Made by a program: the position numbers and the translations under genes | Origin: a bacterium | GTDB taxonomy: Bacteria; Bdellovibrionota_C; UBA2361; SZUA-149; JAEUWB01 | Direction of reading: 5' to 3' | Assembly: GCA_016786595.1 (NCBI GenBank) | Contig: JAEUWB010000034.1 | Coordinates: 1-35,988 of the forward strand | Length of the DNA: 35,988 nucleotides | In this document: positions 1,470 through 30,969 of the stretch, piece after piece | Position numbering within the stretch: position 1 is the stretch's first letter | How the letters are laid out: each line of letters begins with the position of its first letter | The notes under the pieces: model-generated | Seen by the model: the letters and a program-made list of their open reading frames with translations, nothing else | Databases searched by the model: none | Told to the model about the DNA's origin: nothing

Positions 1470-2441
1470 CTAAACTAGTCGGAAAGGCAACAATGCGCTA
1501 GCTAGCAACAACCCGCCAGGAGCAAAGAAGCCTGGTGGAGGCTTGACAGAAAAATCCCCATTTTTCCATGCACTAAATGCCGAGCGAGCTAGTTGCGCAT
1601 GATCCTTAAACCAAGAAATGAAAGATCTCCTTAGCGGGACGTCTGAAGCTAGGCAAATCACTTTTAAACCTTTGCGCTCAGATTTGTATATTTTACTAGG
1701 AGGTTGAAGCTTCAAAGCATGAGCTCCAATAACCTGGCGTTTTCTATTCATTCGATAGCCATGCTCTTTGTCCTTAATTATTTTCAGGAGCTCTTCTGTA
1801 TACGATTCTGAAGAAGCATTAGAATTGAAACACTGGAGTAATGCCCAGGGGGTTACAATAAGGGGGTATTCCCTTCCGTCAGATTCAAGTAAAACTTTAG
1901 CTAGTTCTTTTTGCTCATCTAAACTCAAAGCCCTAGGCGGCAAAGCGGGGATAGAGTCTCTAGAGATTTTTTTACAGATTTTAGTCATTCCTCCGTTGAG
2001 TAATGCTTGGTAACTGGAGACTCCTGGATATTCTGAAGCTTTATCTACAAGACTTGCCTCAACTGGGTTAAGATAAAGATAAGCTATGCGCTCAAGTAGC
2101 TTATTTGATTCAAGGATCACCAGAGAGTCATACCCTGAAAGCCAAACACTTCTTTGCCTTCTTCCCAGTAACCTATTAATCGCATGCGCAAGCTCGCACT
2201 TAAGATAACGCATAAATCGAGGAATATCCTCCGGATTATGCACTATCGCAATTAAGTGAAAATGATTGCCCATGAATAGATAGTGGCAAATTGTGACTTG
2301 AAATTGATTGCTAGCAGCAGCAAGAATTCCTTCAATAATTACATTTAGATATGCAGCAACTGATAGTGGCAGCCCCTCTTGGATGCTGCTGCATAACTCA
2401 ATTGCAGTATTGTTAAAAAAGCACTTAGGATTACGTGGCAT
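1470..2441 (-). CDS. REP-associated-type tyrosine (Y1/HUH) transposase
   Basis: This is a 323-residue single-strand DNA transposase of the IS200-like superfamily. The HUH motif is H60-F61-H62 in YLFMGNHFHLI. The downstream helix region (RIAYLYLNPVEASLV, 118-132) carries the candidate nucleophile at Y121 or Y123 and the NPV signature typical of RAYT proteins. The conserved segment after it (EYPGVSSY) is also present. A long C-terminal part (about 150-323) ends in a PPGFF/APGG-rich tail. I recognise this form from chromosomal, domesticated-looking transposases, not from classical IS200. No terminal inverted repeats or target duplications were found. A REP-like hairpin lies about 90 bases upstream of its start (2531-2555) and related copies lie near 7.4-7.6 kb, which fits a RAYT/REP pair. 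Confidence 0.85.
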   Translation of the reverse strand: MPRNPKCFFNNTAIELCSSIQEGLPLSVAAYLNVIIEGILAAASNQFQVTICHYLFMGNHFHLIAIVHNPEDIPRFMRYLKCELAHAINRLLGRRQRSVWLSGYDSLVILESNKLLERIAYLYLNPVEASLVDKASEYPGVSSYQALLNGGMTKICKKISRDSIPALPPRALSLDEQKELAKVLLESDGREYPLIVTPWALLQCFNSNASSESYTEELLKIIKDKEHGYRMNRKRQVIGAHALKLQPPSKIYKSERKGLKVICLASDVPLRRSFISWFKDHAQLARSAFSAWKNGDFSVKPPPGFFAPGGLLLASALLPFRLV

Positions 2442-2560: not shown

Positions 2561-3868
2561 CTAGGAGGAAGCTAAATTCCAGATATTTTTCAGAAGTGAA
2601 ATGTTATCAGAATGCCCCGTCATTTTCGCCCGAACCCTTCCACGGATCGGACGCCCCGTTAAAAAGATATCACCAATAATATCAAGAATCTTGTGACGAG
2701 CAAGCTCATCCGGAAAACGTAACTCCGTATTAATGATATTATCCGAGCCAATCAAAATAAAATTATTAAACCGCCCACCCGCCGCAAGCCCAGCACGCTG
2801 CAAACGCTCAATGTCTTTAACAAAACCAAACGTCCGCGCCGGCGCAATCTTTTCCTTAAAAGCAGCAACAGAATCAAACACAAACTCCACCGACTGATGT
2901 CCCACAGGATCCGGATAATTCAATTCATAATTTACTGAAAACTTCTCAGCCGGCTCAATCGTAATCGTTTCCGCACAGCCAGCACTCGCCACAAAACTAA
3001 TTGATTTCGTCGGCGCAAGCTCATACCAGTCCCCACCCTGCTCCTGAATACCGATTTCTTCAATAACTTTACAAAAATCAATTGCCGAGCCATCCAAGAT
3101 CGGCACTTCGTCATTACACTTAATCAGTAAATTAGAAATACGATACGCATGCAACGCAGCCAGCAAATGCTCAATCGTCGCCACCGAAATGTCATCGTGC
3201 CGAATCGAAGTCGCAAAAGCCGTCGAATCTACAAAATCAACAAACGCCGGAACCGTCCGCGTAGTCCCAATTTTTCCAAAATGTATGCCCGAATCCTTAG
3301 GCAAAGGCTCCAAACTCAATCCACTCTTTTGCCCAGAATGCAATCCCAAACCATAAAGCACAGTGCTTTTCTTCAAGCTGCGCTGTCCAAGATTCTTCCC
3401 CGGCAGGTTCTTAGAAAGCATGCCAAAATGAGAAAAATGTGAACTCGCCTGGGAATGCTCGATCACACTATCATCCCCACTCTCAAGCAATTTCAACGCG
3501 CGACTTGCAGACTGAAGAATGCCATCAATATTGAGTGGCTTTTCAATAAAGTCAAAAGCACCACGCTTTGTCGCATCCAACGCATTTTGAATCGTGGCAT
3601 GACCCGAAATCATAATTACTTGGATTTTTGCATTCGACTCTCGCACACGATCAAGCGTATCTAAACCATCAAGTCCCGGCATCCAAATGTCTAAAAACAT
3701 TAAATCCGGTTTAAAGCCAGGAATCTCTGCCAAGGCCGCCGTGCCACTCGTTACAGTTTTTGTTTCACAGTTTTCATCACGCAAGACCTGCTCTAACGAC
3801 TCACAAATCGTGCGCTCGTCATCGACAATTAAAATCCGTGGCTTACGATTAAAAACCTGTAAAGACAT
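2561..3868 (-). CDS. lpxC: NtrX-like receiver domain fused to LpxC deacetylase
   Basis: A single 435-residue frame holds two complete modules. Residues about 9-128 are a CheY-like receiver of the NtrX/AtoC kind: acidic pair D16-D17, phosphoacceptor D60 in LDIWMPGLDG, S88 in MISGHAT and K110 in FIEKP. A Ser/His-rich linker (about 129-160) leads to LpxC (about 162-435), the UDP-3-O-acyl-GlcNAc deacetylase that commits lipid A synthesis. LpxC residues are intact: E233-H234, H392 and D396 (RHKILDIIGD), and H419 (GHSDN), with the spacing of E. coli E78/H79, H238, D242 and H265. LpxC alone is normally about 305 residues. A GGGAAG site within the end of purA sits 8-13 bases before the ATG, and purA stops 5 bases upstream, so the two are co-transcribed. 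No ribosome site precedes the internal Met150, so the fusion is probably made as one protein. Phospho-control of LpxC is inferred. Confidence 0.92.
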   Translation of the reverse strand: MSLQVFNRKPRILIVDDERTICESLEQVLRDENCETKTVTSGTAALAEIPGFKPDLMFLDIWMPGLDGLDTLDRVRESNAKIQVIMISGHATIQNALDATKRGAFDFIEKPLNIDGILQSASRALKLLESGDDSVIEHSQASSHFSHFGMLSKNLPGKNLGQRSLKKSTVLYGLGLHSGQKSGLSLEPLPKDSGIHFGKIGTTRTVPAFVDFVDSTAFATSIRHDDISVATIEHLLAALHAYRISNLLIKCNDEVPILDGSAIDFCKVIEEIGIQEQGGDWYELAPTKSISFVASAGCAETITIEPAEKFSVNYELNYPDPVGHQSVEFVFDSVAAFKEKIAPARTFGFVKDIERLQRAGLAAGGRFNNFILIGSDNIINTELRFPDELARHKILDIIGDIFLTGRPIRGRVRAKMTGHSDNISLLKNIWNLASS

Positions 3869-3873
3869 AGCAA

Positions 3874-5193
<1,320 letters not shown>

Positions 5194-5526
5194 CTACTTT
5201 GAAGTCACACGGTTGGCATCTAGTTCGCCATCTTGATATTTCTGCACAACTTGTGAGTTAAGCTCGATATAATCTTTCCATTTTTCGGGCACGTCGCCAT
5301 CTTCATAAATTGCATCAACTGGACATTCTGGTTCACAAGCCCCGCAGTGAATACACTCATCTGGGTGAATCACGAGCATGCCGATATCGCCGGACTTTTG
5401 TGGGTCGCGCCCAGCTTTAGTATTTAAATTTGCATCAGGGTTATTATAAAAACAGTCCACCGGGCAGACTTCTACGCATGAGCGGTCTTTTGTTCCAATA
5501 CACGGTTCTGTAACAACGTAAGCCAT
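5194..5526 (-). CDS. fdxA: FdxA-type seven-iron ferredoxin
   Basis: This is a 110-residue electron carrier. The start [20 protein letters not shown] is characteristic of FdxA. Eight cysteines are visible: C9, C17, C21, C25 and C58, C61, C64, C68. In this family they hold one [3Fe-4S] and one [4Fe-4S] cluster, with C17 next to the 3Fe site. A longer-than-usual Asn/Asp/Lys-rich insertion (about 28-50) separates the two cysteine groups. A strong GAGGAG ribosome site precedes the ATG. tRNA-Cys lies 65 bases upstream in the same orientation, so they may share a promoter. The redox partner is unknown. Confidence 0.95.
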
Positions 5527-21167: not shown

Positions 21168-22046
21168 TTATGCCTTAATATCACGGTGCATAATTTGAAG
21201 GATTTTGAAATTATGCTCGTAAAGCAACTGTGCCAGCGTCTCGGTTAATGCTACTGAGCGGTGCTGACCTCCGGTACATCCCAAGCCAATCCTTAGATAG
21301 CGCTTACCCTCCTGACGGTAACGAGGAATTAGAAAGGCAAGAAAATCAAGGTAGCGCTTCAAAAATTCCTGAGCATCGGGCACAGCTAATACATAATTCG
21401 CAACTTCTGCATTCCGTCCGTCAAGCTCGCGTAGCTCAGGAACGAAATGTGGATTGGGTAAAAATCTCACATCAAGCATCAAGTCTAAGTCCTGAGGAAT
21501 GCCGTGCTTAAATCCAAAGGAGACAAGGGTGATTTCTGGTCGCGTTTCTGCATCCCTGGTGTCCTCAGCAAATAGTGACTCGATGTGATTACGTAGTTGA
21601 TGTGGAGAGAATGAGCTCGTATCAACCACGCGGTCAGCAATCGAGCGAAAGTCGGCAAGTAATTCGCGTTCGCGCTGAATTGCGCTGGGGATACAATCGC
21701 AACACTCTGATTCAATCAAGGGATGTGGTCTACGAGTTTCTTGAAATCTTCGACATATTACATCGTCATGGGCATCGAGAAAAATTACTTCCGTAACTGC
21801 GCCCCGGGCGCGGATTGACTCAAGTGCGGTTTTGAGAATTTTCAATTCAATTGCGGTGCGCGAATCAAGCAATAAGGCAAAATGCCCTTGAATCGAATTG
21901 GTAAGATAATGTTGAACGAAGTCCTGAAATAAAGGACCCGGTAAATTATCCACACATGAATAACCCAGGTCCTCGAGTGTATGTAATGCCGTGGTCTTAC
22001 CCGATCCGGAGAGACCACTGAGCAGTATTAATTCTGGTTTAGGCAT
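21168..22046 (-). CDS. rapZ: RapZ/YvcJ-family nucleotide-binding RNase adapter
   Basis: A 292-residue protein with a Walker A loop GLSGSGKTTALHTLEDLGY at its start, the VDNLPGPL block typical of the family, and a C-terminal RapZ domain ending with LRIGLGCTGGQHRSVALTE. In E. coli RapZ guides RNase E to the GlmZ sRNA and so controls GlcN6P supply for LPS and peptidoglycan; YvcJ in Gram-positives has other roles. Its ATG overlaps the hpf stop by eight bases (ATGCCTAA), implying translational coupling. The rpoN-hpf-rapZ order is the classic proteobacterial rpoN neighbourhood, although no PTS-Ntr genes are present here. Confidence 0.95.
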   Translation of the reverse strand: MPKPELILLSGLSGSGKTTALHTLEDLGYSCVDNLPGPLFQDFVQHYLTNSIQGHFALLLDSRTAIELKILKTALESIRARGAVTEVIFLDAHDDVICRRFQETRRPHPLIESECCDCIPSAIQRERELLADFRSIADRVVDTSSFSPHQLRNHIESLFAEDTRDAETRPEITLVSFGFKHGIPQDLDLMLDVRFLPNPHFVPELRELDGRNAEVANYVLAVPDAQEFLKRYLDFLAFLIPRYRQEGKRYLRIGLGCTGGQHRSVALTETLAQLLYEHNFKILQIMHRDIKA

Positions 22047-22380
22047 CAGCAACAGTTACTTGCACATGGCGATGACTCTGCATGCGCTCTTTTTCCTTAC
22101 GTAATTGCGTAGAAACCATATCTACGGCTTTATCAATTGCCGAATATAAGTCACTAGTTGTTGCCTTACAAGAATGATCGTGCCCACGTGTATGGAAAAT
22201 CACTTCGGCCGTATGGTCTCGTTTCTCCACGGAGAGAATAATATGCACATTCGCCTCACCACTAATAAATCTCTCAAATCTGCTTTTTACTTTTTCCGAT
22301 GCATAACTTTTAAGTGCTTCTGTTGATTCGGTATGGCGGAAAGTTACGGAAGTATTGATTAATGGATTTGGTCGAGACAT
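22039..22380 (-). CDS. hpf: Ribosome hibernation-promoting factor (short HPF/YfiA type)
   Basis: This 113-residue protein has the beta-alpha-beta-beta-beta-alpha HPF fold: the NTSVTFRHTESTEALKSYAS helix, VHIILSVEKRDHTAEVIFHT strands, DLYSAIDKAVDMVSTQLRK helix and a basic tail KERMQSHRH. It binds the small ribosomal subunit during stationary phase. It lacks the C-terminal dimerisation domain of long HPF. A strong AGGAGGA ribosome site lies upstream. It is located between rpoN and rapZ with an eight-base overlap into rapZ. Confidence 0.95.
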   Translation of the reverse strand: MSRPNPLINTSVTFRHTESTEALKSYASEKVKSRFERFISGEANVHIILSVEKRDHTAEVIFHTRGHDHSCKATTSDLYSAIDKAVDMVSTQLRKEKERMQSHRHVQVTVADA

Positions 22381-22447
22381 GATTACATCCTCCTACTCTT
22401 ATTAATATCTACAGTCTACCACAGGTTTACCGGTCCAGAGCAAATAT

Positions 22448-23848
22448 TTAACTATTTTTTTTACGCTTAGAGGAAGGCAAAATATTCATCATTTCTCGAT
22501 ACTTCGCAACCGTCCGTCGCGCGACGCTAATGCCTTGTTGCCCTAAAATTCCTACCAAATCTTGATCGCTATATGGATTTGCTGGTGCTTCAGCCCGAAT
22601 GATTGTTCTAATTTTTTCCTTAACTGATTCTGAAGAGATATCTCCCCCGAAACTACGCAGACCCGAAGAGAAGAAATATTTTAACTCAAATACTCCATGC
22701 GGAGTGTGCACAAATTTATTGGTCGTGATTCGACTGATTGTTGATTCGTGCAAACTCAATTCCTGTGCGACATCTTTCAAAACCAGTGGTTTCAAGGCCG
22801 AAATTCCTTGATCGAGAAAATCATTCTGAAAGCGCATGATGCTTTCCGTTGCGCGCAAGAGAGTTTTCTTACGTTGCTGAATTGATTTAATTAGCCATGT
22901 TGCTGATTTGATTTTTTGTTCGAGAAAAAGCTTTTCCTCGGGGCTGGCCTGCTCGACTTGTTTTAATAGATCTTGATAGCTGTCGCTGAGGCGAATTTGA
23001 GGAATGCCCGTGTCATTTAAGGTAATTTCACACTGTCCGTTAATCTTGCTCACGTAAACATCCGGAGTAATATAAATTGGCGTTTCTTCATAAAAAATTC
23101 GTCCCGGCCAGGGATCAAAATGGCGGATCGCTTGCAGCGCAGCTTCCACTGCCTCGGCGGTGGTATTTTCCAGTGCGGCAATTTTAGCGAAATCCATGTT
23201 GCTGATGTCTTCTAGATATACGTCAACAACGCGATAAACTAAATCGTTGATATGCCCATAGGCAATTGCCTGTAAGAGCAAGCACTCACGCAAATCACGT
23301 GCAGCAATACCGGGTGGGTCGAGGTCTTGCAGATATTCAAGTAAAGTGTGCGCCTCTTCAGGGGCTGCGCCGCATTCATGCGCAATTGTTTCGAGATCGC
23401 CCTCAAAGTACCCGTCACTATTTAAGTTTGCCAGTAATTGTTCGAGAATTTGCTTCTCGAGAGTTGTAAATTCTTCACTACGAATTTGCTGTAAGAGGTG
23501 ATCAATTAATCCAGATTCTGGACAGGCCACATTATTTAGTGAAAAATCCTCGCCTTCATCATCAAAATCTTTGCGCTTGTTTCCACGGAAGCGATCAGCA
23601 TTGACACCCGTCTCGAGACGATCCCAGGAAGAATATTCTCTTAATTCGCGTTGATATGCCTCGAGCAGATCTTTACTATTTTGCGCTGCAGGAACTTCCT
23701 CAAGCACTGGATTCTCTAAGAGCGCCTCTTCAATCGCTTGAGCGTATTCCATACGCCCGAGCTGCAAGAGTTTAATTGATTGCTGTAATTCTGGTGTTAA
23801 AACCAGATTTTGTGTCAGTTTTTGTGATAATTTAAGACCAACAGACAT
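22448..23848 (-). CDS. rpoN: RNA polymerase sigma-54 factor
   Basis: This is a full-length 466-residue sigma-54. Region I at the N terminus (SQKLTQNLVLTPELQQSIKL) contacts activators and the -12 fork. An acidic linker (about 55-115) leads to the core-binding domain. The helix-turn-helix around 365-385 (ELSLHESTISRITTNKFVHT) and the RpoN box ARRTVAKYRE near the C terminus read the -12 and -24 elements. A matching -24/-12 promoter stands before the minor-pilin operon at 33253-33268. The ribosome site is weak, and the 266 bases upstream contain several hairpins. Confidence 0.98.
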   Translation of the reverse strand: MSVGLKLSQKLTQNLVLTPELQQSIKLLQLGRMEYAQAIEEALLENPVLEEVPAAQNSKDLLEAYQRELREYSSWDRLETGVNADRFRGNKRKDFDDEGEDFSLNNVACPESGLIDHLLQQIRSEEFTTLEKQILEQLLANLNSDGYFEGDLETIAHECGAAPEEAHTLLEYLQDLDPPGIAARDLRECLLLQAIAYGHINDLVYRVVDVYLEDISNMDFAKIAALENTTAEAVEAALQAIRHFDPWPGRIFYEETPIYITPDVYVSKINGQCEITLNDTGIPQIRLSDSYQDLLKQVEQASPEEKLFLEQKIKSATWLIKSIQQRKKTLLRATESIMRFQNDFLDQGISALKPLVLKDVAQELSLHESTISRITTNKFVHTPHGVFELKYFFSSGLRSFGGDISSESVKEKIRTIIRAEAPANPYSDQDLVGILGQQGISVARRTVAKYREMMNILPSSKRKKNS

Positions 23849-23929
23849 TAGTAAATCTTTAAAACGCTTAACAAATTAGCATCTATAGATACTATCGGCA
23901 TAGTTCTTGCTAAACAAAAGATTTAATAA

Positions 23930-24070
23930 ACTTCTTTCGAATAGGATTTTAACAACAGCTTAAGATCTTGATATGATTTAATAAATAAGGAAATTCTTTA
24001 AAAATTTCCAATCTTTTCTCGAAAGAAGTCTGTTTTACTTTTTTGTCCATTTTTCTTGCGAAAAATGGAC
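23930..24070. repeat. Hairpin cluster between lysC and rpoN
   Basis: Three inverted repeats are nested or adjacent. ACTTCTTTCGA (23930-23940) / TCGAAAGAAGT (24019-24029) encloses GGAAATT (23989-23995) / AATTTCC (24003-24009). Next to them is a perfect 11-bp hairpin GTCCATTTTTC (24045-24055) / GAAAAATGGAC (24060-24070) with a TTGC loop. None has a clean T tail in the lysC direction. They lie in the rpoN leader if rpoN is read through from lysC. Confidence 0.6.
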
Positions 24071-24114
24071 CATTAAATTTCCACTGTAATTGTAGGAGTT
24101 TATCACCTACAGTT

Positions 24115-25347
24115 TTACGCTTCCTTACGCTCGATAAAGTATTCATGCAGTGAGCGCACAGCAAGTTCGGCATATTTCTGCTGAATTGCAACAGCAGTCA
24201 TAATTTCTGAAGTTGTTACTAAGTCGATATTAATCCCTTCACGTCCAAGGATCTCAAAAATTTGAGCGGCCACTCCAGCATGGGCCTTCATGCCTTCACC
24301 GACAACAGAGACTTTGGCAATACTACGATCAAGTTCAATACTTGCTTCCGGAAATTCTGTCTTGATCACCGCCAGCAAAGCCTCGTATGCAATCACAGCT
24401 TGATCGTCATCAACTGTAAAGCTCACAGTAGCCTTAGCGCCAAATCCCTGGTTTTGCACAATCATGTCTACGTTAATTCCATTTTGTGCGATGTGCGAAA
24501 ACAATTTCGACATGCTACCGGGTCGGTCAGCAATATTTCTTAAGGTAATTTTTGCTTGGTCATTTCGACAGGTAATTCCAGAGACTACTGCATCTTCCAT
24601 ACCAGGGTATTCCTCAACTATTTCTGTGCCTTGATTGTGATTAAAACTTGAAGCAACCAGTAGCGGCACTCGATACTTCATGGCAAGTCTAACGCTACGA
24701 GCTTGCAGCACTTTAGCTCCGCTGCCTGCAAGTTCGAGCATTTCTTGATAGGTCAAACGTTCCAATTTACGCGCGCACTTACAAAGCGAAGGTTGCGCTG
24801 TGTAAACACCGTCGATGTCTGTGTAAATAATACATTGCTTAGCTTTAAGCGCAGCTGCCAGAGCAACTGCTGTTGCATCTGAACCACCGCGCCCGAGCGT
24901 AGTGTAATTACCTGCAGTATCAGTACCTTGAAAGCCTGCAACAACGGGAATCACTCCAGCATCAAGCAAGGCTTCGAGCTTTGTTGTCTCAATCTGGTCA
25001 ATTAATTCATTACCATAGACGTTTGTTGTTAAAATTCGCACTTGTGGAGCCAACAAAGAGATACTTTCCAAGCCTTCGCGCTCGATCGCCATTGCTGTGA
25101 GGGCAGTTGTGACCTGTTCACCCGTAGCAAGCAATTGATGATATTCACGATCGATTTTTTGCTGTTTGCGAACTTTACGCGCTAACTCTACGAGCTTATC
25201 TGTTTCTCCACTCATTGCAGAAACGACAACTACAATCCTCGGATTGCCTGCTCTGCGGTGTTTCGCGACTCGCCTAGCAACTTCGCCAATGCGCTCAGTT
25301 GAGCCAACTGATGTTCCACCAAATTTTAATACAATCAGATCAGACAT
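24115..25347 (-). CDS. lysC: Aspartokinase
   Basis: This 410-residue kinase phosphorylates aspartate, the entry to lysine, threonine and methionine synthesis. It shows LIVLKFGGTSVGS at the start, VVVSAMSGETD, TLGRGGSDATAVALAAALKA, IYTDIDGVYTAQP, and two C-terminal ACT domains (about 265-335 and 345-405) with NIADRPGSMSKLFSHIAQNG and MKAHAGVAAQIFEILGREGI, for feedback control by amino acids. The ATG at 25347 is preferred to a TTG two codons upstream; neither has a strong ribosome site. It sits between lptB and rpoN. No lysine riboswitch was seen in the 133-base gap upstream. Confidence 0.97.
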   Translation of the reverse strand: MSDLIVLKFGGTSVGSTERIGEVARRVAKHRRAGNPRIVVVVSAMSGETDKLVELARKVRKQQKIDREYHQLLATGEQVTTALTAMAIEREGLESISLLAPQVRILTTNVYGNELIDQIETTKLEALLDAGVIPVVAGFQGTDTAGNYTTLGRGGSDATAVALAAALKAKQCIIYTDIDGVYTAQPSLCKCARKLERLTYQEMLELAGSGAKVLQARSVRLAMKYRVPLLVASSFNHNQGTEIVEEYPGMEDAVVSGITCRNDQAKITLRNIADRPGSMSKLFSHIAQNGINVDMIVQNQGFGAKATVSFTVDDDQAVIAYEALLAVIKTEFPEASIELDRSIAKVSVVGEGMKAHAGVAAQIFEILGREGINIDLVTTSEIMTAVAIQQKYAELAVRSLHEYFIERKEA

Positions 25348-25480
25348 GATCAAGTCATTAACACAGCGGTAAAACTAATCAAAGTGCGGCCTGATTTGCT
25401 GATTACCACGGACGCTACTTGTTCTAGTCAAAACTACAGCTCATTTCACTGCAAATTAGATCTCAGGCATTGGCAGAGCA

Positions 25481-26266
25481 TCAATAATCGAATGACTCGC
25501 CTAGGTAGAATTTTCGTGCAATCGCAGATTGCGAAATATGTTCGGGCGTTCCCGATTCAATCACCTTCCCTTCGCTTACAATATAAGCGCGGTCGCAAAT
25601 ATTCAGTGTTTCGCGCACATTGTGATCGGTAATTAAAATGCCGATTCCCTTTTGCTGCACTTGCCGAATTAGTTTCTGCAAGTCTTCAACAGCAATTGGG
25701 TCAATGCCTGCAAATGGCTCATCCAGCAACATAAAAGATGGGTCGCAAGCTAAGGCACGAGCAATTTCCGTGCGTCGCCTTTCACCACCAGAGAGTGAGT
25801 AAGCGCGCGTGTTCGCCACGCGCGTGAGATTCAATTCCTCTAGTAACTCTTCAACACGCTTAAGTTGCATTGTCGACTTACCTGCATACTGGGGCAAGAT
25901 TTCAAGCACGGCTAAGATATTTTCCCGCACCGTTAACTTACGAAAAACAGATGCTTCCTGAGGCAAGTAGCCAATCCCCAAACGCGCGCGCTGATACATC
26001 GGCATCAGCGTCACATCAGTGCCATTAAAATATACTGTCCCACCATCGGGTCGCACCAAGCCGACAATCATGTAAAAGGAAGTCGTCTTACCGGCACCAT
26101 TGGGGCCGAGCAGTCCAACCACTTCCGCTTTAGCAACCGCTAGGTCAACGCCATTAACGACACGTCTGCCACTATATTCCTTGACCAAGCCTTCGCAAAT
26201 AATTCGACCTTCTGCGCGGTCGTGCGCATGCAACTCGATTGTCTCTTTTTGCATTTCTTGACTCAT
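25481..26266 (-). CDS. lptB: LPS export ABC transporter ATPase LptB
   Basis: This 261-residue ATPase powers the LptB2FGC complex that extracts LPS from the inner membrane. It has Walker A GLLGPNGAGKTTSFYMIVGL, a Q-loop in GYLPQEASVFRKLTV, the signature LSGGERRRTEIARAL, Walker B FMLLDEPFAGIDP and the switch His in ITDHNVRETL. The short extra N-terminal piece (about 20 residues before GLVKEY) is unremarkable. Its ATG overlaps the lptA stop by one base (TAATG). LptF and LptG are not in the window. Confidence 0.97.
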   Translation of the reverse strand: MSQEMQKETIELHAHDRAEGRIICEGLVKEYSGRRVVNGVDLAVAKAEVVGLLGPNGAGKTTSFYMIVGLVRPDGGTVYFNGTDVTLMPMYQRARLGIGYLPQEASVFRKLTVRENILAVLEILPQYAGKSTMQLKRVEELLEELNLTRVANTRAYSLSGGERRRTEIARALACDPSFMLLDEPFAGIDPIAVEDLQKLIRQVQQKGIGILITDHNVRETLNICDRAYIVSEGKVIESGTPEHISQSAIARKFYLGESFDY

Positions 26267-26826
26267 TAATGCTTTACTTTGCTACTTGCTTTTTGAGAAT
26301 CGTTAAGTTCTTGATGATTAATAATTTTAACACGAACCTCTCCCTCTGCCTCACTGCGATCCTCGTTCACATAAAGTGTGATTTTAGCAGCAGCTAGAGC
26401 ATTTTGTTTATTCACGACCTCAGGATTCTGGGTCAAGACAACGGTTGCCTTTTTTGGATCATATACAGCATGCTGCGATGTCGCGCGCATATCTTCACCA
26501 CGGATAATCACCACATTTCCCAGACAAAGCAACTCCGTTAACTGATTGCTTTGATCATAAGTGCCAATCATTTTATCGGCATCGATTTTCAGAATGTCGC
26601 GAATCATTTTCACATTCCCAGCATAAACAAATTGACGAGTTTTATCATCAACTTGGAGAGTATTTGAAGTAATTGTGACAGGCGCATCCTTTGCACCAGA
26701 GTTTTTAAGTCCCTCAAAAACACCTTTTGTCGGCTGGTTGGGTTTGTCTGTGGCCTTTGCTTGCCCAAGTAGTTCAGTGCTTAAAGTCAAAAACATTATG
26801 CAGCTAATTATTAAATTCTTGATCAT
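26266..26826 (-). CDS. lptA: LPS transport periplasmic protein LptA (OstA-like)
   Basis: A 186-residue protein with a signal peptide over about 1-26 (hydrophobic IISCIMFLTLSTELLG, then QAKA). It has one OstA/LptA beta-jellyroll domain (about 48-150), containing VTITSNTLQVDDKTRQFVYA, KMIRDILKIDADKM and AVYDPKKATVVLTQNPEVV. It is expected to polymerise with LptC and LptD as the periplasmic bridge for LPS. It lies between lptC (55 bases upstream) and lptB (one-base overlap), the standard order. Confidence 0.93.
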   Translation of the reverse strand: MIKNLIISCIMFLTLSTELLGQAKATDKPNQPTKGVFEGLKNSGAKDAPVTITSNTLQVDDKTRQFVYAGNVKMIRDILKIDADKMIGTYDQSNQLTELLCLGNVVIIRGEDMRATSQHAVYDPKKATVVLTQNPEVVNKQNALAAAKITLYVNEDRSEAEGEVRVKIINHQELNDSQKASSKVKH

Positions 26827-26881
26827 GTCTATTCACGCCTAAATTATGCGCTTTAAATTATGTTTTTCTAGAAGCATCCAC

Positions 26882-27478
26882 CTATTGAGTGCTTACCTTT
26901 GAAATAAATTGCGAATTTACCGTGCTACTAATCTCAATTAACCGATTAGCTACCTCGACTGTCATTCCAATACCATTAATCGTATAACCCTGGCCAACTA
27001 TCTTCACCGGACCAGCGGCGCTAATCTTATCTTGATCAGCATCATAGACCGCAAGATCTGTATAAATTTTGGTGCTTTCATCAATCCCGATAACTACGTC
27101 CCCTTGAACGTCAGCGGAAACGATTGCTTCACCACGTAAATATAGTTTTCCACTTGTCGATGTCACAGTGACAATACTTCCATCCGGACGATACATTTTC
27201 ATAGTTGAGTTTGCTAGCCGTGCTTGATTCTCGGTGCTGTAATACTTAGCCTCAACTGCGCGGACTTCCCAGACGCGACGCCCTTTCTTCACAGCCACTC
27301 TTTCAAAATCCTGAATGTGTAACTCAGAGGTTGTTTGTGGTGAGCTGTTGTTATTTGTATTTATCTTAGTGCCCATTTTTTCCGCGGAACGAAGATATGC
27401 CGTACTCAGCACAAAAATGACGAAAGCCGCAGTCAAAAGCGCAACAATTGCTTGTGCTGGTGAGCGAAAATAATACAC
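26882..27478 (-). CDS. lptC: LPS export protein LptC
   Basis: A 198-residue bitopic protein. One N-terminal membrane helix (about 9-28, QAIVALLTAAFVIFVLSTAY) precedes a periplasmic LptC beta-jellyroll (about 50-190) with WEVRAVEAKYYSTENQARL, MYRPDGSIVTVTSTSGKL and a YTDLAVYDADQDKISAAGPV repeat unit shared with LptA. It receives LPS from LptFG and passes it to LptA. It starts 12 bases after kdsA ends. No kdsC or kdsD lies between them as in several relatives. Confidence 0.93.
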   Translation of the reverse strand: MYYFRSPAQAIVALLTAAFVIFVLSTAYLRSAEKMGTKINTNNNSSPQTTSELHIQDFERVAVKKGRRVWEVRAVEAKYYSTENQARLANSTMKMYRPDGSIVTVTSTSGKLYLRGEAIVSADVQGDVVIGIDESTKIYTDLAVYDADQDKISAAGPVKIVGQGYTINGIGMTVEVANRLIEISSTVNSQFISKVSTQ

Positions 27479-27490
27479 AAATCTTACTCT

Positions 27491-28339
27491 TTACTCTTTA
27501 AGTGAATCCTGGCGGAGCTTCCAAATTGGCAGCAGTTCATCAAGCAGTGCTGGTAGTTTATTCAAAGGGAACTGACTCATTGAATCCGAAAGTGCCTTGT
27601 CCGGGTTTTCGTGACACTCAATAAAAAGGGCATCAATCCCAACCGCCACTCCTGCTCGGGCTAAAGCAGGGATTTGCGTGCGGTCTCCTCCCGAAACTCC
27701 GTTGACTCCGCCAAGGCGCTGCACTGAGTGCGAGGCATCGAGCACAACCGGAGAACCAAAGGAGCGCATCGTTTGTAGCCCACGCATATCAACAATTAAA
27801 TCGCGATAACCAAATGATGTTCCTCGCTCACAACAGATTACTTGTTTATTTCCCGTAGCTTTAATCTTATCGATCACAAAAGGCATATCGTCAGGACTTA
27901 AGAATTGCCCTTTCTTGACCATCACAGGGAGCGCAGATCTACCTGCAGCTGCCAGTAAATCTGTCTGGCGACAAAGAAAAGCAGGAATTTGCAATAAATC
28001 TACTACTTTTGCCGCAGCCTGAACTTCTTCCGGACTATGCACATCGGTTATAATCGGCACAGCGAATTCTCGGCGTAAGGCCGCTAAGATCTCTAGTCCT
28101 TGATCGAGCCCCAAGCCGCGGAAGCTTTTACTCGATGTGCGGTTGGCCTTATCGTATGAAGATTTATAAATCAGTTTGACGCCAGCCTGTTGAGTAATTT
28201 TTAAAATCTGCTCAGCATGCTTGAAGGCATGTTCACGGGACTCAATCACACAGGGGCCTGCAATCAGAACAAACTCTTGACCACCGCCGATTTGTGCATG
28301 CGTGACTTGCTTATCTTTACCGACAATAACAGTTTTCAT
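27491..28339 (-). CDS. kdsA: KDO-8-phosphate synthase
   Basis: This 282-residue TIM-barrel aldolase condenses phosphoenolpyruvate with arabinose-5-phosphate. The family blocks are FVLIAGPCVIESREHAF, YKSSYDKANRTSSKSFRG, PIITDVHSPEE, LQIPAFLCRQTDLL, KKGQFLSPDDM, CERGTSFGYRDLIVDMR, VVLDASHSVQRLGG and ALFIECHENPDKALSDS. It keeps the Cys of AGPC that in metal-dependent KdsA helps bind the metal. It lies eight bases after pyrG and 12 bases before lptC. Confidence 0.97.
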   Translation of the reverse strand: MKTVIVGKDKQVTHAQIGGGQEFVLIAGPCVIESREHAFKHAEQILKITQQAGVKLIYKSSYDKANRTSSKSFRGLGLDQGLEILAALRREFAVPIITDVHSPEEVQAAAKVVDLLQIPAFLCRQTDLLAAAGRSALPVMVKKGQFLSPDDMPFVIDKIKATGNKQVICCERGTSFGYRDLIVDMRGLQTMRSFGSPVVLDASHSVQRLGGVNGVSGGDRTQIPALARAGVAVGIDALFIECHENPDKALSDSMSQFPLNKLPALLDELLPIWKLRQDSLKE

Positions 28340-28347
28340 TGAGACAT

Positions 28348-30069
<1,722 letters not shown>

Positions 30070-30177
30070 CTATTATTTCTTGCTAACCCACTAAAGCTAA
30101 GTTCCAAATCGAAACCAGGCAAGAGAATTAACTATAGAAAACTAAAAAACTTTTTTGATGACTTTTAACTACTTAAC

Positions 30178-30969
30178 TTACTTCAGGCCGAGGGCAACCT
30201 CGCGCGCTCGTTGAAGATCTTGAGGCGTGTCGACCTCAACAAAATTACGAGCTTCATCATGGGAAAGTATATATACACCAATACTGTGACCATTTTCAAG
30301 TACTCTCAATTGCTCAAGCATTTCGATGCGTTCTAATAGCGCTTGCTTGCTTGTTGCAAAGGTAGTCAGTGACTCCGGTGTATACGCATAAAGCCCGATA
30401 TGCCTGTAGCCCAGCACCCCATTAGGATAAATCACTCCATCACGGCTGTGCGGTATTGGCGCGCGCGAAAAATATAGTGCTTGGCCCGCGGGACTCAGCG
30501 CAACCTTCACAACTGTAGAAGCAGCAAATTGATCTTGGTCCATAATCGGGACAGCAATAGTTGTCATCGAGAATTGGTCATAATTTTCCTTAAGGACCTG
30601 GATCACTCCATTAATTGCCGCAACGCTGATAAATGGCATGTCGCCTTGAATATTTAAAATTATTTGGAAGTCTTTCCCTGTAGGGTCGATTCTCTGCCAA
30701 GCTTGATAAACGCGATCTGTTCCAGACGGAGCATCTGCCGAAGTCATGATTACTTCAGCACCAAAACTTGTAGCAACTTGAGAAATTTCAGCTGAATCGG
30801 TAGCCAACACTACGCGCTGTAAAGACGAGACTTGTGCTGCCTGCTGCCAGACATGCTGAATCAAAGACTTGCCATCAATCTCTTGGAGTGGCTTGCGACC
30901 GAGGCGCGTTGAACCCAAGCGCGCTGGAATTACTGCTAAAACATTATAGTTGACTGACTCTGCACCCAT
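30178..30969 (-). CDS. kdsB: CMP-KDO synthetase
   Basis: This 263-residue cytidylyltransferase activates KDO for transfer to lipid A. It has VIPARLGSTRLGRKPLQEIDG (CTP loop), VVLATDSAEISQVA, GTDRVYQAW, the ILNIQGDMPFI metal site, YFSRAPIPHSRDG, the HIGLYAYTPESLT motif and ERIEMLEQLRVLENGHSIGV. A short N-terminal extension of about seven residues precedes the first strand. It is separated from pyrG by 135 bases and from the upstream membrane protein by 58. Confidence 0.97.
   Translation of the reverse strand: MGAESVNYNVLAVIPARLGSTRLGRKPLQEIDGKSLIQHVWQQAAQVSSLQRVVLATDSAEISQVATSFGAEVIMTSADAPSGTDRVYQAWQRIDPTGKDFQIILNIQGDMPFISVAAINGVIQVLKENYDQFSMTTIAVPIMDQDQFAASTVVKVALSPAGQALYFSRAPIPHSRDGVIYPNGVLGYRHIGLYAYTPESLTTFATSKQALLERIEMLEQLRVLENGHSIGVYILSHDEARNFVEVDTPQDLQRAREVALGLK

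Follow-up and report, generated by a model that had tools for sequence, protein, structure and literature searches.

The receiver–LpxC fusion protein

The window (the whole stretch of DNA analysed here, 35,988 nucleotides of contig JAEUWB010000034.1) carries a gene in which an NtrX-type phospho-receiver is joined to a complete LpxC deacetylase. LpxC is the committing enzyme of outer-membrane lipopolysaccharide (LPS) synthesis, and it is controlled by FtsH/LapB proteolysis in enterobacteria and by transcription. An original prediction, made from the DNA letters, placed a continuous frame at this locus, and this has been borne out: 435 amino acids (aa) are read from position 3868 to position 2561 without an internal stop, on the minus strand, which had not been given at the time. 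The gene is made up of the following parts:

2561..3868, minus strand: receiver–LpxC fusion gene, 435 aa, ATG at 3868 (open reading frame and Pfam)
3512..3835, minus strand: NtrX-type receiver, residues 12-119 (Pfam Response_reg, 103 bits, E 1e-29)
3689..3691, minus strand: codon of the predicted phospho-acceptor D60 (invariant in 92/92 aligned rows)
3386..3511, minus strand: linker, residues 120-161 (AlphaFold2 pLDDT, the predicted local confidence, ~31; site of an AAA domain in other phyla, from the domain maps of relatives)
2579..3385, minus strand: LpxC deacetylase domain, residues 162-430 (Pfam LpxC, 256 bits, E 5e-76)

The receiver presents all the residues predicted for it, namely the acidic pair D16/D17, the phospho-acceptor D60, S88 and K110, together with W62, H90, I93 and E109, which residue comparison identifies as NtrX-type; its best-matching NCBIfam receiver model is that of NtrX. 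The LpxC domain spans positions 1-267 of the 268 in the Pfam profile, and is thus complete, and it scores above the TIGR00325 cut-off of NCBIfam. The zinc and catalytic residues E233, H234, T346, H392, K393, D396, D400 and H419 are all present at the predicted spacing, with H234, H392 and D396 as the zinc ligands (H, H, D) and E233 and H419 as the catalytic E/H pair. AlphaFold2 models of six sequences show confident receiver and LpxC folds, with residues 132-154 predicted to be disordered, and a Foldseek search matched solved LpxC structures. Since Pfam finds neither an AAA domain nor a C-terminal Fis-type helix-turn-helix (HTH), the protein, although derived from NtrX, is not itself an NtrX.

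Beyond the last zinc histidine, the window protein continues for 16 residues, and the 91 fused LpxC proteins end 13-32 residues past the corresponding position, compared with about 40 residues in E. coli LpxC. Such a short stretch leaves no room for the C-terminal FtsH degron tail of the E. coli type, which is therefore not present in the fused LpxCs. Its absence is in line with a different mode of control.

Conservation and distribution of the fusion

An alignment of the window protein with 91 distinct fused proteins (92 rows) shows that both active sites are maintained. D60 is invariant (92/92), S88 and K110 are each found in 91/92 rows, with one T and one R as the respective exceptions, and the eight LpxC residues listed above are invariant in 92/92. 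The region between both domains varies among the fused proteins, in which it can be present, degenerate or lost. Constant active sites around a variable middle are the pattern expected if selection acts on a unit formed by the phospho-receiver plus LpxC.

Looking for this architecture in other genomes, as the original prediction proposed, recovered the same fusion in about 130 genomes from at least five phyla. In the phylum of the window (46 genomes), LpxC was found in 40 genomes and a single frame holds receiver and LpxC in 36 of these; in the remaining four the frame is interrupted by a contig end, and the missing receiver half was located on another contig in three genomes (G012, G031 and G038). 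A survey of 383 genomes from some 330 genera revealed the same LpxC clade far outside this phylum. A second phylum, of 77 genomes, has 65 LpxCs, of which 62 sit in frames of 460-797 aa, and all 40 fused proteins read there have an N-terminal receiver, most of them also with an NtrC-type AAA match of ~240-340 aa between receiver and LpxC. Frames of AAA-bearing size were also found in about 20 fused genomes of a third phylum (24 genomes) and in all four genomes of a fourth. Additionally, eight more families outside those four phyla are fused (f114, f126, f224, f62, f79, f104, f169 and f118).

Loss of the fusion in close relatives was also looked for, and the apparently unfused members of the clade are all cut at contig ends. 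This applies to the receiver-less L069, L075, L119 and L121, which had been considered as cases of re-splitting, and to the partial frames of G023 and G031. The long LpxC frames of G313 and G189 were discarded as fusions, given that they have no receiver match and group with unfused LpxCs. An internal restart yielding free LpxC was rejected as well, since a methionine between the domains is found in only 14 of 43 AAA-less forms (GTG and TTG starts not checked) and is not conserved.

Single origin and NtrX ancestry

In an LpxC tree of 47 fused and 29 unfused sequences, the fused proteins form one clade with 100/98 support, recovered in 100% of the bootstrap trees. With regard to the receivers, those of the fusions have a mean identity of 48% to ntrY-linked NtrX receivers, versus 35% to NtrC-family paralogs, and they keep W62, H90, I93 and E109, which are present in 90-100% of NtrX and rare in paralogs. 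The receiver tree, built on 122 columns, places the paralogs apart from a group of fused and NtrX receivers with a support of 79/88. The receiver had originally been described as NtrX-like; these identities, the residues shared with NtrX and the place of the gene strengthen that description to one of descent from NtrX. The fusion itself, its single origin and its NtrX ancestry can be considered established on sequence evidence.

Forms devoid of the AAA domain (all those of the window's phylum, G124/G125, G080, G215/G352 and G349) are scattered inside the fused LpxC clade, requiring 6 changes, and G058 retains an AAA remnant of 60 aa. Such a scatter within one clade agrees with the AAA domain having been lost repeatedly. 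In the AAA-less forms, 28-61 residues separate the receiver and LpxC domain matches. Where the AAA domain is present, the Walker A motif is kept in 43 of 48 fusions, and the GAFTGA motif is found in none of the 48, compared with GAFTGA or GSFTGA in 8 of 10 unfused ntrY-linked NtrX. The fused AAA domain was thus ruled out as a live sigma-54 activator.

According to the proposed history, an ancestor shared by all fused lineages would have joined an ntrX gene, located downstream of ntrY, to lpxC. The sigma-54 contact loop would have been lost after the fusion, and several lineages, including that of the window, would then have lost the whole AAA domain, leaving a receiver–linker–LpxC protein. Repeated loss of a domain between two that are kept can be seen as a natural experiment, in which a transcription factor appears to have been turned into an enzyme regulator.

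The histidine kinase NtrY as the candidate partner

A co-occurring cognate kinase had been suggested as a point to look for, and NtrY was found in 51 of the 54 fused genomes tested. Among 38 genomes from the first two phyla, 36 have the N-terminal domain of NtrY, NtrY_N (PF19312), as do 12 of 16 fused genomes from elsewhere, and protein searches added NtrY in G151, G349 and, in broken frames, G006. The source genome has one NtrY (G000:C11:45710-47938), a protein of 743 aa with NtrY_N, HAMP, HisKA and HATPase domains, whose gene follows ruvA-ruvB, with no response regulator next to it (locus L156).

The gene order in other lineages links both proteins more closely. In 17 genomes from 12 families and several phyla, ntrY lies directly upstream of the fusion, with a gap of -62 to +276 bases, and in 9 unfused genomes the place after ntrY is held by a full-length NtrX. 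Furthermore, in G177 (L236) and G205 (L237) an unfused lpxC is found just upstream of ntrY-ntrX in the same operon, suggesting a functional link of lpxC with ntrYX without fusion. A separate NtrX was also looked for elsewhere in the genomes, in which no protein reached the NCBIfam NtrX cut-off, a weak negative since the ntrY-linked NtrX of unfused lineages were not scored against it, and the best-scoring NtrC-family proteins of the fused genomes group with paralogs. By descent, the partner of NtrY in the source genome would be the receiver carried by LpxC, a pairing for which the evidence is that of gene order, co-occurrence and ancestry.

In many phyla, whether LpxC is fused or not, the gene immediately before ntrY encodes ~200-290 aa (L168, L169, L211-L213, L222, L226 and L227). 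It is called DUF4390-like here, a label that does not come from Pfam, and it often precedes ntrY in the 17 genomes with the ntrY-fusion order. A similar gene is also part of the lpxC-ntrY-ntrX operon of G205 (L237), and its product is a possible partner of the NtrY sensor.

Relation to known systems

The fusion resembles NtrX in the sequence type of its receiver, in a gene position right behind ntrY and, outside the window's phylum, in the AAA domain between receiver and output. It differs from NtrX in having LpxC as its output where NtrX has a DNA-binding HTH, in the lack of GAFTGA throughout the AAA-bearing forms and, in the window protein, in the lack of the AAA domain itself. As an LpxC it has the whole catalytic domain with all zinc and catalytic residues and a score above the family cut-off, but it carries an N-terminal receiver, has no E. 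coli-type degron tail and belongs to a separate clade. Response regulators with enzymatic output include the CheB, PleD and RpfG types, in which, as in the fusion, a receiver is joined to an enzyme that is presumably switched by phosphorylation; the enzyme of the fusion, however, belongs to essential lipid A biosynthesis and not to signalling or second-messenger turnover. LpxC is also found within a two-domain protein in the LpxC-FabZ type (PRK13188), where it is joined to a C-terminal dehydratase. Only the LpxC half of this model is matched by the window protein, and an identity with it was rejected on account of the different partner and a score of 193 bits against a cut-off of 465.

Two-component signalling is known to affect LpxC at the level of transcription. 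In Rhodobacter, the loss of NtrYX raises the lpxC transcript 8.8-fold, and also raises LPS, in an effect that is probably indirect given that no NtrX site was found at lpxC (PMC7240162). In Caulobacter, NtrYX and ChvGI affect lpxC transcription (reviewed in PMC12444477), and DVU2934 of Desulfovibrio vulgaris targets lpxC (PMC3333781). The same NtrY-NtrX pair is thus involved in two of these cases, whereas in the fusion the regulator and the enzyme form one polypeptide. No receiver or fusion on LpxC is described in a review of lipid A regulation from 2025 (PMC12444477), and the receiver–LpxC fusion was not found in open-access full texts, although the architecture may be listed in domain databases without being remarked on. 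As far as could be found, the fusion is an enzyme-output response regulator with LpxC as a hitherto undescribed output.

Proposed control of LpxC and alternative explanations

The reading that we consider likely comprises the ntrX-lpxC fusion, the loss of the AAA domain, NtrY as the likely phosphodonor of Asp60 and post-translational control of LpxC, with the phosphotransfer, its physical mode and its sign inferred. The membrane kinase NtrY would phosphorylate Asp60 of the fused receiver, and the phosphorylated receiver would alter LpxC output post-translationally, be it through receiver dimerisation, through docking at the membrane kinase via the flexible linker, or through altered activity or stability. 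The linker, with 28-61 residues in AAA-less forms, makes dimerisation, docking or access a more likely means of control than a rigid allosteric contact. With regard to the sign, the analogy with Rhodobacter, in which NtrYX lowers the lpxC transcript (PMC7240162), leads to the guess that the phosphorylated receiver lowers LpxC output, so that the NtrY signal would lower LPS synthesis. A membrane sensor could then probably switch LpxC directly instead of via gene regulation. A broader claim, held with somewhat more belief than doubt, is that at least five phyla switch their lipid A synthesis directly through two-component phosphorylation of its committed enzyme, with NtrY sensing the envelope state and phosphorylating the LpxC-borne NtrX receiver. 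The first proposal, that a histidine kinase could control LpxC directly through its receiver, is supported by the conservation and kinase data.

Several points weigh against this reading. The linker, being disordered, offers no view of an allosteric contact. Most response regulators share the conserved receiver residues, and their conservation speaks for phospho-competence and not for an influence on LpxC. The receiver tree is of moderate support, with 79/88 on its 122 columns only. Moreover, ntrY and the fusion are unlinked in the window's phylum, where their pairing rests on ancestry, and G215, G352, G015 and G080 have the fusion but no recognisable NtrY. Of these, G015 and G080 are incomplete assemblies. 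G215 (L217) and G352 (L218) are single-contig genomes with an AAA-less fusion beside mutS, and the receiver of G215 has K110R; a changed kinase or lost signalling is possible in both.

Other explanations start from the same observations. The receiver could be a mere anchor or stabiliser whose fold tethers LpxC to the membrane kinase or shields it from proteolysis, phosphorylation being a relic. LpxC is elsewhere controlled via its amount and location (PMC12444477), and the fused enzymes are too short at their C-terminus for the E. coli degron, both of which suit such a role. A receiver serving only as an anchor should have lost its phospho-residues somewhere, but across 91 proteins from at least five phyla D60, S88 and K110 hardly vary despite the repeated loss of the AAA domain, which makes this explanation unlikely. 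It is improbable, too, that the controlling kinase is one other than NtrY, or that small phosphodonors take its place. Fourteen further HATPase matches are found in the source genome, not all of them necessarily histidine kinases, and in family f13 the fusion has as divergent neighbours an HDOD-type gene and the gene of a ~430-aa histidine kinase (L004, 116-2493; L184, L187, L193 and L194). This neighbour is limited to one family, however, whereas ntrY adjoins the fusion in 12 families and is nearly always present.

The direction of control could also be reversed: LpxC or its substrate load would do the sensing, the receiver would serve as a phosphate sink or competitor for NtrY, and the fusion would thereby control the kinase and not the enzyme. 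The gene position, which suggests that the receiver was retained as a partner of NtrY, would suit this idea, as would a long flexible linker that does not suggest tight allostery. Yet no other NtrY output is visible in the source genome, with no NtrX beside NtrY and none at the NtrX cut-off, and such a reverse feedback seems quite improbable. An assembly or frameshift artefact joining two genes, which the draft state of the source assembly (60 contigs) might have suggested, has practically no credit left, and was ruled out because the same conserved junction recurs in about 130 genomes and the fused LpxCs form a single clade.

If control of LpxC by NtrY through the fused receiver holds true, a conserved receiver with an identifiable kinase would represent a further, direct mode of LpxC control. 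The NtrYX-LpxC link, known only as transcription effects in alphaproteobacteria, would then be an old and central function of NtrYX. Both the signal sensed by NtrY and the adjustment of LPS in bacteria without the FtsH-LapB-LpxC tail would become accessible to work with purified proteins.

Genomic context of the fusion gene

The fusion is the sole LpxC of the source genome (2.58 Mb, 96.8% complete), in which a search for a second, unfused LpxC found none. Two genes precede it on the same strand:

3874..5175, minus strand: purA (adenylosuccinate synthetase), directly upstream of the fusion (Pfam)
5194..5526, minus strand: 4Fe-4S ferredoxin, first gene of the apparent operon (Pfam)

The purA stop codon and the ATG of the fusion are separated by 5 bases, and the fusion looks like the last gene of a ferredoxin-purA operon. 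In most genomes of the window's phylum purA also adjoins the fusion upstream. Directly downstream (1470-2441, minus strand) lies a gene for an IS200-like Y1 transposase (PF01797, weak match).

Elsewhere in the window, positions 21168-30969 of the minus strand contain, according to Pfam, kdsB, pyrG, kdsA, lptC, lptA, lptB, an aspartate-kinase-like gene, rpoN, hpf and rapZ. The presence of kdsB, kdsA, lptC, lptA and lptB makes it very probable that the source organism produces LPS bearing 3-deoxy-D-manno-octulosonic acid (Kdo) and needs LpxC. As the only LpxC of a genome with kdsA, kdsB and lptABC, the fusion is probably the working deacetylase of the cell. RapZ and the LPS genes share this one stretch of the window.
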